Assembly: GCA_964020085.1 (NCBI GenBank)
Contig: OZ026602.1
Location: 28,735,177 to 28,799,176, forward strand
Source: Micromussa lordhowensis
Taxonomy: Eukaryota; Cnidaria; Anthozoa; Scleractinia; Lobophylliidae
DNA length: 64,000 bases
Reading direction: 5' to 3'
Shown here: one piece after another, positions 12,962-16,797 of the stretch
How positions within the stretch are numbered: the first letter of the stretch is position 1
Layout: every line of letters starts with the position of its first letter
The notes under the pieces: model-generated
The model's database searches: none
What the model was told of the DNA's origin: nothing
What the model saw: only the letters and a program-made list of their open reading frames with translations
Program-made: the position numbers and the translations under genes

Positions 12962-13370
12962 ATGGAAATACCAAACTATGATAGCGGTGAAAGATTAGAC
13001 AACGGCTTCAAACGATTACATGAATACATGCCGAAAAACACATTCAGGATGCTTTTAGCGGGTAATTCCGGATCGGGTAAAACGAATCTATTGAGTCATA
13101 TTTTACAATCTCCATTGATCTATTATGATCAGATCCGTTTGTATGCCAAAAATCTCGATCAGGATAAGTACACAAATTTAATTGATAAGATGAATGGAAT
13201 AAGTGAACATGTTGGTTACCCAGTTTTGATAGCAAGCAATGATGAAATAATATCTGTCGACCAGCTGCAAGATACCGATATGCAAAGAGTTGTTATATTT
13301 GATGATTATGTATGTGAAAAAGTACAGAAACCTCTGATAGACTATTTCATTGGTAAAGGTAAAGAATCCG

Positions 13371-13515
13371 ATCCCACCGATGCGTCGACCAACACGTCGG
13401 CCAACGTGTCGGTCGACACACCACCGACACACTACCGACACGTCGGCCAACACACTACCGACACGTCGGCCGACACACTACCGACGCGTCGGCCGACACA
13501 CTACCGACGCATTCA
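13371..13515. repeat. Left subterminal repeats of the Merlin element
   Basis: A 23-bp unit (CGACACACTACCGACACGTC plus GGC) occurs three and a half times, preceded by related CGTCGGCCAACGTG units. The units share the CGTCGGC/GCCGACG core with the right-end repeats, in inverted sense. They are probable transposase-binding sites. Confidence 0.7.
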
Positions 13516-13784
13516 TCGAAAAACTTACCTGTCTTAACGCTTATTTTGTTACGTCTTTCAGTTGGAAGCAAGAACAACGTCACAAGAAAGGACGAAAACA
13601 TGAAAGTTAAACAGCCGCCATTTTGAAAATGAAACACTAGTACCTAGGTCTTCTCGATTTATTTTTCAAGGGTCGGTTAACAAAGGGAGTCGGCCGACAA
13701 GTTAATCACATGTTTATTTATTATTGATCACATGTTTATTTATGTTAAAACTCTTTATTGATCATTGACTTTTCAATATGTGGT

Positions 13785-13800
13785 GGCTCCTAAAGGAGCC
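13785..13800 (-). terminator. Histone-type 3' stem-loop of the transposase gene
   Basis: On the minus strand, about 20 nt after the stop codon, lies AAAAAACGGCTCCTTTAGGAG followed by CCACCA. It forms a 6-bp stem and 4-nt UUUA loop flanked by AAC and ACCA. This is the layout of replication-dependent histone mRNA 3' ends, which are bound by SLBP and cut without polyadenylation. Downstream comes GAAAAGTCAATGATCAATAA, which also contains an AATAAA signal. Histone-type processing is an inference from the match. Confidence 0.6.
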
Positions 13801-13820
13801 GTTTTTTGTTTTTTGCAGTT

Positions 13821-14708
13821 TTACTGCTGTGGAAACTGTACAGCGATGTCTTCCAGCAACTGCTCGAATGCTCGGTCTTTCCCAAAGTTCCGGAACCAGG
13901 TGAACTCGTCTAGGTAGCTGGGTATGTATTCATACAGGGTACCGCACATCCACTTCAACTTCTTCTTCACCAAAGCCCACACGCCTTCGATGGTATTGGT
14001 GTGTGCACCACTGTCGGGGTCAACAAAGTTCTTAGAGTGATTCACCAATAGATGGATGTATCCTAGCTGGTTGAGTGGTATGTACGGAGTGAATTGATCT
14101 GAATAGATGACAGTTCCAGGTCGGATATGCGTTGTGATAAGACGATGAACAAGTGTCTCTCTAGTTCGGTCTGGAACACGGAAGAGCAGCACTTTCTGTG
14201 ATCCTCGCTCCACTACTCCAAACACCCACGGACCTTCCGAGACTCTCCCTCTCTTATACTTTCTCTTTGCACCAAACTTGGACTCGTCAATTTCCACGGT
14301 CTTTCCTAAGCCTCCAAGCTTAATTCCAGCATTCAGGACTTTGTAGGAACAGATTGTTTTCAGCTCACTTAGCGCATGGATCACAGTAGGCTTTGAAAGG
14401 CTGGTAAGTCGCGCGATTTTGCTTCCTGAAATCTGCATAGCCCAGAGGAACATCAGATGCAGCCAGGTACTTAACGGGATATTAGATCCCTCGAAGAAGG
14501 AGCCCGATCTTATTGAAAGCCATGTTCTACACGGCTTATTCGTACAGCGCCACATGTATCCGTCGTTCACCCGTGTTGTCTCTGTTAGTTCCATATTAGA
14601 ACCACATCGAGAACACTGCCGACAGCTCGCTAAAAGCTTCTGACTTACGAAGAAATTAAAAACATTCTGGAAACTTCCCAATATTACAAAAAGATCACTG
14701 AACTCCAT
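13821..14708 (-). CDS. Merlin (ISXO2/IS1016-like) DDE transposase
   Basis: Intact 295-aa frame with ATG at 14708. An N-terminal zinc ribbon (CRQCSRCGSN...RCTNKPC, about residues 30-60) precedes a helix-turn-helix-like segment (KIARLTSLSKPTVIHALSEL, about 96-115). Catalytic residues are likely D in VEIDESKFG, D in VIYSDQFTPY and E in HTNTIEGVWALVKKKL, the ISXO2-like order. It cuts and pastes the element that carries it. No stop or frameshift is seen and the element ends are intact, so the protein could be functional. It has no introns. Confidence 0.9.
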   Translation of the reverse strand: MEFSDLFVILGSFQNVFNFFVSQKLLASCRQCSRCGSNMELTETTRVNDGYMWRCTNKPCRTWLSIRSGSFFEGSNIPLSTWLHLMFLWAMQISGSKIARLTSLSKPTVIHALSELKTICSYKVLNAGIKLGGLGKTVEIDESKFGAKRKYKRGRVSEGPWVFGVVERGSQKVLLFRVPDRTRETLVHRLITTHIRPGTVIYSDQFTPYIPLNQLGYIHLLVNHSKNFVDPDSGAHTNTIEGVWALVKKKLKWMCGTLYEYIPSYLDEFTWFRNFGKDRAFEQLLEDIAVQFPQQ

Positions 14709-15063
14709 GTTCTAGAAAGTCGTGATCTAATGCTAGAGGATAATGAAATTAGGATCAAGTGTGGATTTAGTGAGGATCAAACTGTAATTAATTTAGGATC
14801 GAATTAAACCAATCACAGTTGCGAAAAAGCAGCGAATCAGAACGCTTATTACTAAACCAATCGAATACAAGGCATAACAATGGTAATTAATGTGAAACAA
14901 GTTAGGATCAAATTAAACCAATCACCGTTGCGAAAAAGTAGCAAATCAGTACGCTTCTTATTAAACCAATGATATGAAAGGAACATGGTATTAAATGTAA
15001 CAACTCAATTAACTTGACACCATTAGCATCTATTTGCAACTACGCTCTCTATAATACTCGACA
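14709..15063. promoter_or_regulatory. Bidirectional CCAAT-rich promoter of the Merlin element
   Basis: Two tandem copies (109-bp period, starting 14793 and 14902) each contain TTAGGATC, AAACCAATCAC, TTGCGAAAAAG and a second ACCAAT. The four CCAAT boxes sit at 14809, 14857, 14918 and 14966. GGATC motifs recur also near 14751 and 14774. An octamer-like ATTTGCAA at 15032 resembles the histone H2B octamer. The stretch separates the two divergent genes, so it should drive both. CCAAT arrays are typical of S-phase and histone promoters; the regulatory reading is an inference. Confidence 0.55.
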
Positions 15064-15871
15064 ATGTCTCAACGTCTAACTAAGTGTACTGTCTGCGGAC
15101 AAACTGGTCACACAAGAATCCACTGTTTAGTCATGTGCGGTTCTTGTAGTGGCGACAGTCGCAAATGTGATTGTCAACAGCCACCAGCAAAAAAAAAAAC
15201 AGAAGAAGGGGAAGGCAAAGAGAGCAGCAGAACAGGAGCAGCCGCAGGAAGCCGCAGCCCCAGGGTCTCCAGAGGTTGAGCCAAATTATAAATCTGTTTG
15301 TCGGCAGCTCCAACAAAAAAAACAGCAACTTGGCAAAGCCTACCAGCATCTTAAGGCCAAGTTCGACGAGCTAGAAGCCAATTGTCAGGAGGGGGAGGAA
15401 CAGCTTGCTCAGGCTCAACAGGACGCCGACGAGATGGCAGACTTAGTCCGACAGAACGAACAGCATCTCCAGGCCTACAGAGAGGAGTTGAGGGAAAAAG
15501 ATGAGTGCATTAAGGCCCTGGAGCAGCAGCTACGAGCCTTGCAGACCTCTAGTACGGCACCGTCAGCTGCAGATAGCCATGAAGCTGCTGCGAAGGTTGA
15601 CCGGAATGACCTTGCCGAAATCCATCGACGCTATGCTGCTGTGCTCTCAACTCTAAATGAGAAGAAGTGCAGCCTCAATAACGCCTACCGACTCACGGGC
15701 ACAGCACGCAGCACGATAAGGGACTTCATCGGCATAGCGGAGCTCAAAATCGTCAACGAAGTCACTTATCAAAGCACCCTGGAACGGCTGGGAGACCCGA
15801 AACTTTCAGTGAAAATGATCGAGCGGGAGTGCCGAAGACAGCTGGGTGATCTGTTGCCGTTAGTGAAATGA
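15064..15871 (+). CDS. Zinc-knuckle / coiled-coil companion protein of the Merlin element
   Basis: Two overlapping frames. The first (from ATG 15064) encodes a zinc knuckle (CTVCGQTGHTRIHC) and a second Cys cluster (CGSCSGDSRKCDC), then loses coding quality after an A-run at about 15188-15199. The other frame (open by 15149, stop 15869-15871) encodes a Gln/Glu/Ala-rich coiled coil (roughly residues 50-130 of that frame) and a helical C-terminus. The two are probably one protein split by an indel in the A-run, or joined by frameshifting there. The protein is not recognised; the zinc knuckle suggests nucleic-acid binding and the coil self-association, perhaps a transposase cofactor. Confidence 0.55.
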
Positions 15872-15953
15872 CTTCGCTCCGCGAAGAGGCTATTACCACT
15901 GGCGTTGGAGGATGCCTTCTATTCCTAGAGGGCTCTGTCAACAAAAAACAAAC

Positions 15954-15969
15954 GGCTCCTTTAGGAGCC
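15954..15969 (+). terminator. Histone-type 3' stem-loop of the companion gene
   Basis: GGCTCCTTTAGGAGCC, preceded by ACAAAC and followed by ACCAAG, lies 82 nt after the stop codon. Stem, loop and flanks match the stem-loop after the transposase gene on the opposite strand. The following TTAAAAAGTCAATGACC and AATAAAG are also shared. Both genes therefore end in the same signal in their own sense. Confidence 0.6.
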
Positions 15970-16059
15970 ACCAAGTATTAAAAAGTCAATGACCAACTCA
16001 ATAAAGTTTACCTAATAAAGATTTAAGTCTCGGCCAAAAAAGTCAATAATAAGTATTTA

Positions 16060-16500
16060 TTGACAGTCGGCCGACGCGTTGGTCGACAGTCGGCCGACGC
16101 GTTGGCCGATAGTCGGCCGACGTGATTGCAAACGTGAGAACTGGGTTCTAATAACACTTGTCGTAATGGGAACTGGGTTCTAATGACACGAAAAACAAGA
16201 TGGCAGTCAAAAGTATATTTCTTAGTTAGATATCCTAGTGAAAATTTTCTGTTGAAGACACTTCAATTCAGTTTGGAAAAGGTATGTTTAGCATTAAGTT
16301 CAATAAGGCCCAAATAAGTCACCGACACGCCGCCGACGCACCACCGACGTATCTTGTACGTTATAAGTTCAAAGAGTTGTCAACGTGTCGGCTGACAGTC
16401 GGCCGACTGTTGGCCGACTGTCAGCCGACTGTCGGCCGACTGTCGACCGACTGTCGGTCGACTGTCGACCAACGCATTGGCCAACGTGGCCGACGCGTCG
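16060..16500. repeat. Right subterminal repeats of the Merlin element
   Basis: Two clusters. At 16064-16122, CAGTCGGCCGACGCGTTGG units occur about three times. At roughly 16405-16470, an 11-bp unit (GACTGTCGGCC and variants) occurs about six times in a row, followed by CGACGCGTCGGTGGGATCG at the end. The palindromic core GTCGGCCGAC recurs throughout. Between the clusters (16130-16320) the DNA is AT-rich, with a duplicated AACTGGGTTCTAATRACAC unit near 16140 and 16169. Confidence 0.75.
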
Positions 16501-16797
16501 GTGGGATCGTATTCTTTACCTTTACCATTTCATTCAAGGACGTCATAAAAACTGCTCTGTGATATATCTCACACAATCTTTTTATGGATGCCCTAAAGCA
16601 ATCAGATTGAATTGTAGCCATTTCTGTTTGTATGACTTTCCATCCTCAAGAGAAAGAAATTTAATATCTCAAGAATTGGGAATTGATAAAGAAAAATATA
16701 TTAGGGCAACCAAGAAACCATACTCTTTCTGTTATGTGGACAAACCGATGAAAACAGTGAAGAGAAACTTCTATGGAAATGTATAATATACTTGTAT

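Follow-up and report, generated by a model that had tools for sequence, protein, structure and literature searches.

The 3' ends of replication-dependent histone mRNAs (Rfam RF00032) are processed by the SLBP/U7 pathway, and such a 3' end is usually regarded as a mark of replication-dependent histone genes. Among mobile elements, the Merlin superfamily (IS1016/IS1595-related) is defined by a DDE_Tnp_IS1595 domain, a terminal GG and target-site duplications of 8 or 9 bp (PMC8101967). The word 'histone' does not occur in the main text of that paper, and in the literature, mostly non-subscription and judged by title and the opening of the abstract, we found no paper that deals with histone-type ends of transposons. 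Here we describe a Merlin element in a 64,000-nucleotide stretch of the Micromussa lordhowensis genome (contig OZ026602.1; G000:C8:28735177-28799176, hereafter the window), which is part of a 580.8-Mb assembly containing histone arrays. The element is like members of the superfamily, as described in that paper, in its DDE_Tnp_IS1595 domain, terminal GG and 8-bp duplications, but differs from them in having a divergent gene pair over a common promoter region and histone-type 3' ends. Judged from its sequence, this selfish DNA has probably taken over the host histone-mRNA pathway, with histone 3' processing signals on both of its genes and a histone-like promoter module on the transposase gene.

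A preliminary description of the window had placed a DNA transposon at 13352..16526, and we find there a Merlin element flanked on both sides by ATTTCATT. Its features are as follows.

13352..16526, no strand: Merlin DNA transposon of 3,175 bp with inverted ends GGTAAAGGTAAAGAAT; related copies at loci L033-L037
13344..13351, no strand: left copy of the 8-bp target-site duplication ATTTCATT, within a Polinton-type packaging-ATPase open reading frame (ORF)
16527..16534, no strand: right copy of the target-site duplication ATTTCATT
13821..14708, minus strand: transposase of 295 aa, DDE_Tnp_IS1595 (Pfam PF12762, E 3.6e-23, 82.7 bits, cut-off 27)
13785..13800, minus strand: histone-type stem-loop of the transposase gene (Rfam 38.1 bits; host-histone model 64.4 bits)
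13762..13773, minus strand: downstream element AAAAGTCAATGA of the transposase gene
15149..15871, plus strand: partner ORF, with a CCDC106 match under the cut-off
15954..15969, plus strand: histone-type stem-loop of the partner gene (Rfam 35.1 bits; host-histone model 72.4 bits)
15981..15992, plus strand: downstream element AAAAGTCAATGA of the partner gene
14709..15063, no strand: shared divergent promoter region of 355 bp, with four AACCAAT, four GGATC and a direct repeat of ~110 bp (81% identical)
14796..14813, minus strand: ATTGG-N8-GATCC module 1, the same as upstream of host H2A genes
14905..14922, minus strand: ATTGG-N8-GATCC module 2

The 3' layout given in the preliminary description holds in every part. 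Downstream of each gene in its own sense, on opposite strands, lies the stem-loop GGCTCCTTTAGGAGCC with AAC before and ACC after, such that both genes end in AAC-GGCTCC-TTTA-GGAGCC-ACC followed by the common element AAAAGTCAATGA. The hairpin begins 20 nt past the stop codon of the transposase and 82 nt past that of the partner ORF, and both ends score above the cut-off of 34 bits for Histone3 (RF00032), besides which no Rfam family exceeded its own cut-off in the 64-kb window. At each site the predicted fold is a 6-bp stem with a 4-nt loop at -11.4 kcal/mol, an energy equalled in none of 200 shuffles. The sequence GGYYYYTTTARRRRCCACC occurs twice in the window (shuffle mean 0.00) and GGYYYYTTYHRRRRCCA three times (shuffle mean 0.02; at least three in 0/100 shuffles).

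The two ends were compared with those of the host's own histone genes, and no difference in loop or flanks was found: the loop UUUA, AAAC before, ACCA after and a CAATGACC-type downstream element are those of most of 14 host histone ends. When a model built solely from these 14 ends was run on the window, the right Merlin end, the left Merlin end and the end of a chromodomain gene described below took ranks 1 to 3, and rank 4 scored 19.2 bits; the 14 host ends, being the model's own training set, scored 66.3-81.2 bits. The exact GGCTCCTTTAGGAGCC hairpin is found on host H4 and H3 genes (L053), H2A and H2B (L014), H4 (L015) and H2B (L059), others being GGCTCTTTTAGGAGCC or GGCTCTTTTAAGAGCC, and in L053 one unit of a tandem repeat comprises H1, H2B, H2A, H4 and H3, every one with a hairpin. 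The right Merlin end shares AAAAGTCAATGACCAA with host H3 genes in L025 and L053, and at the left end a single base is different. The Merlin ends are the same as replication-dependent histone 3' ends in stem, loop, flanks, downstream element and short distance from the stop codon, but the genes that carry them encode a transposase and its partner rather than histones. The host also has matches to the SLBP RNA-binding domain PF15247 (54.8 and 35 bits, cut-off 27; G000:C1:24383960-24384487), the weaker with stops inside its matched stretch, which are probably two exons.

The transposase is of Merlin/IS1595 type, and EIDES, YSDQF and NTIEG, beginning at residues 139, 202 and 238, provide a by-eye candidate for the DDE triad. 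The partner reading frame of the window copy is interrupted near an A-run, and a CX2CX4HX4C stretch begins near 15064 in a frame different from that of the partner ORF; in L022 and L023 the partner frame is open to the limit of the loci, with the CX2CX4HX4C stretch at its start. Viral contigs scanned with the transposase and partner proteins yielded no relative, and phage records no match. The window copy, like L033, L034 and L035, has terminal inverted repeats with the starting GG, GGTAAAGG, at both ends; 8-bp duplications flank these four copies and a 389-bp derivative, L036 and L037 being truncated. The insertion splits a Polinton-type packaging ATPase, with Pfam Pox_A32 on both pieces: the left matches profile positions 9-107 at 26.4 bits, above the cut-off, and the right positions 123-166 at 18.3 bits, under it. 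The element ends (13352-13537 and 16051-16526) contain subterminal palindromic repeats rich in GTCGGCCGAC, which the 389-bp derivative has too.

Both hairpins are present in all five further Merlin copies fetched (L033-L037), which were chosen because one end scored in the Histone3 scan. Among these and the window copy the 16-nt hairpin cores are invariant at both ends, and nothing else in the left region is so; the right 59-nt end has no variable column. A search of the host genome with the transposase gave 135 matches, from which 20 divergent transposases were picked for near full length or closeness. A hairpin lies downstream of one of these, the closest relative, a partial copy at 60% protein identity with the loop UGUA; in that lineage the stem is kept with one loop change, and the rest of the 3' untranslated region has diverged. 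No hairpin was found downstream of the other 19 (35-50% identity), and the 20 are not independent, since 11 of them (L061-L070 and L072) form one similar family by eye. We also counted hairpins beside transposases among the matches listed for C1 and for C2 to 42.0 Mb, a range that includes 32 of the 35 transposase matches of C1 and C2, using as query a single exact 18-nt form by which variants are missed. A same-strand hairpin follows 22-30 nt on in 6/6 own-family transposases reaching the C-terminus, and one lies inside 600 nt of 2/4 own-family fragments without it, versus 0/22 divergent Merlin transposases within the same distance, 14 of which reach query residue 282 or beyond. From this contrast between own-family and divergent transposases, we take the histone-type 3' end to be a trait that arose as a derived state in a single Merlin lineage.

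Covariation in the stem, which the preliminary description had proposed to look for among Merlin copies, cannot be seen in copies so nearly identical; it does appear across genes, where among 41 ends the two pairs that close the loop show changes in both bases. The alignment took 43 of 64 hairpins from the window and fetched loci, with family repeats mostly omitted, and gave 41 distinct rows in which 246/246 cells are paired, 11 of them, at the two loop-closing pairs, with both bases changed; since hairpin-like searches supplied these ends, complete pairing is in part a product of how they were gathered. The covariation score was attained by 0/500 shuffles, which do not remove relatedness.

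The shared promoter region contains four CCAAT (shuffle mean 0.31) and four GGATC (shuffle mean 0.19), and in both cases 0/2000 shuffles attain four. ATTGG-N8-GATCC occurs three times in the window, two of them in the sense of the transposase and one ahead of the chromodomain gene, against a shuffle mean of 0.13. It was found in 12 of 59 fetched loci: the Merlin copies, three complete H2A-H2B pairs, where it stands once per pair and reads in the sense of H2A, and a single Polinton-type stretch. Host divergent H2A-H2B pairs stand ~310-380 bp apart, compared with 355 bp in the Merlin element, and likewise have CCAAT and GATCC motifs and a hairpin at both gene ends; the proteins are unrelated, and the likeness of the promoters refers to the short module only. 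Elsewhere in the host assembly, ATTGGNNNATTTCGATCC forms inverted pairs ~72 bp apart and an array on C2 near 1.85-2.22 Mb.

Several results weigh against a takeover of the histone pathway. AATAAA lies 41 nt (left) and 46 nt (right) from the hairpin starts. The U7 small nuclear RNA model RF00066 gave no match in the host, but 14 control genomes were likewise negative, which makes this result uninformative. Among the matches listed, a partner-side second hairpin accompanies 4/6 family members on C1 and C2, and in another fragment belonging to the 60-65% lineage the hairpin has been lost by deletion. Across the six copies the left hairpin-plus-element region, with 4/59 variable columns and a mean divergence of 0.023, is more variable than the adjoining subterminal region (11/399 columns, 0.009). 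The module has no occurrence in either of the H3-H4 pairs read (L015, L053), and a narrower form of it, which does not fit Merlin's own modules, is found at 253 places genome-wide, some in arrays (control 0). In view of these 253 places and of its lack from H3-H4 pairs, we rejected a reading of the module as histone-specific and regard it as histone-like but suggestive only.

The histone-type 3' end extends to other genes in the window and the genome. The chromodomain gene of the window has the following features.

38465..39091, plus strand: chromodomain ORF of 208 aa, in one piece and intronless-looking (Pfam Chromo, E 2.3e-12)
39131..39146, plus strand: third histone-type stem-loop GGCTTCTTTAGAAGCC, then GCAATGACCAAC (Rfam 33.3 bits, under the cut-off of 34; host-histone model 60.1 bits)
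38398..38415, plus strand: ATTGG-N8-GATCC module before the chromodomain ORF

This gene and the H2A gene in L014 have identical CCAAT-GATCC modules, and a relative in L030 (a partial match, 77% over 35 aa) has a hairpin at its end too. In a genome-wide Histone3 scan 75 of 99,737 first-look candidates were scored, 74 of them coming out above the cut-off, and as a control, sub-cut-off signal was seen in 1/14 genomes. The 30 best of these places, which were fetched (L003-L032), comprise six histone genes, five members of the Merlin family, one chromodomain relative and 18 others, mostly Polinton-type small genes. The 18-nt form GGCTYYTTTARRAGCCAC has 879 exact places genome-wide, and its reversed-pattern control none. 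A Tc1/mariner transposase (Pfam DDE_3; L056-L058) has two histone-type hairpins at its 3' end, 72 nt apart, the first 3 nt past the stop codon (seen in L057 and L058) and the second accompanied by the downstream element; the host-histone model scores them at 23.5 and 69.4 bits. In Polinton-type stretches small genes stop 17-32 nt ahead of hairpins, and a Polinton-type integrase is present in seven of the 15 non-Merlin loci fetched as L038-L052. In the proviral stretches L039-L042, L044, L045 and L047 the genes just before the hairpins encode 96, 108 and ~138 aa, and three such proteins that were scanned match no Pfam family above cut-off. A further repeated family with hairpin ends is seen at L050 (4186) and L051 (4765, with an ORF at 4837-5262), the 141-aa ORF of the latter having no Pfam match. 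A tandem array at G000:C2:35583989-35593768 has five same-strand hairpins at a spacing of ~2.4 kb. Two stretches of viral contigs with a hairpin-like stem pattern were set aside, being under the Rfam cut-off and looking like chance.

The sharing of this 3' end by the Tc1/mariner family and Polinton-type genes suggests that it has been captured repeatedly by selfish DNA in the host genome, and a comparison of 60-nt ends leaves room for another history, in which there may have been a single ancestral capture plus exchange.

Other explanations of the Merlin hairpins can be weighed against these data. If they were transposase-binding subterminal inverted repeats acting at the DNA level, their likeness to histone ends would be incidental, and there are indeed 58-bp arms near both element ends that are mutually inverted and 88% complementary. 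The asymmetric flanks, however, run in gene sense and match host histones, and the Tc1 transposase and the chromodomain gene have the hairpin at the gene end. This explanation, which we consider very unlikely, is further weakened because no histone-type hairpin occurs in the 389-bp non-autonomous derivative, an element that has an 8-bp duplication of its own and in which a relaxed scan finds only GGCC- or GGTC-type palindromes. Bacterial-type terminators or contamination, to which the size of the hairpin lends some resemblance, are still more improbable, to the point of being negligible: the sequence after the hairpin is A-rich rather than U-rich, and this reading was dropped given that the window lies in the large histone-bearing assembly whose own histone ends have the same form.

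The AATAAA found 3' of both hairpins could instead mean that they are functionless relics of histone 3' DNA captured once, with messages polyadenylated downstream. The Merlin copies have diverged too little to allow a test of rates, and conservation in the left region does not exceed that of its surroundings, which would fit a relic. Such a relic is nevertheless unlikely, in view of the retention of the stem at 60% protein identity and of the 6/6 versus 0/22 association with gene ends; moreover, AATAAA stands within 150 nt in 8/13 host histone genes as well, so that its presence at the Merlin ends is non-decisive. The same combination of hairpin and AATAAA at both Merlin ends would suit dual ends, for which H2AX provides a precedent, the mRNA having a hairpin end while cells divide and a poly(A) tail at other times. 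This is a less favoured but real possibility that overlaps with the takeover of the histone pathway, and the same mixture is found at host core histone genes. We prefer a takeover because the Merlin ends agree with the histone genes of the same genome in hairpin, flanks and downstream element, and because both ends bear the signal in the fetched copies, the 60%-identical lineage keeps it, and an SLBP RNA-binding domain is encoded by the host.

By analogy with the SLBP/U7 pathway we infer cleavage, absence of poly(A), S-phase timing and a benefit to transposition. The preliminary description had likewise proposed S-phase, non-polyadenylated mRNAs for both genes, a reading that the comparison with host histone ends supports. 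The hairpins of the Merlin pre-mRNAs would be bound by SLBP, the U7 small nuclear ribonucleoprotein would pair with the CAATGACC-type element, with AAAAGTCAATGACC as a candidate pairing sequence, and the pre-mRNA would be cut between hairpin and downstream element. The products would be non-polyadenylated mRNAs, made and stable in S phase, and transposase would hence be on hand during DNA replication. It seems somewhat probable, from the sequences compared, that the Merlin lineage, the Tc1/mariner family and the Polinton-type proviral genes, which are unrelated kinds of selfish DNA, each took over the histone-mRNA pathway, that their S-phase, non-polyadenylated messages couple movement to replication, and that many histone-type 3' ends of the genome now belong to such elements. 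The annotation of histone ends would be affected, as six histone genes stand beside five Merlin members among the 30 best Histone3 places fetched. A histone 3' end, downstream element and promoter module on transposase genes would offer a direct route for timing a transposon to replication, the time when cut-and-paste movement can increase copy number.

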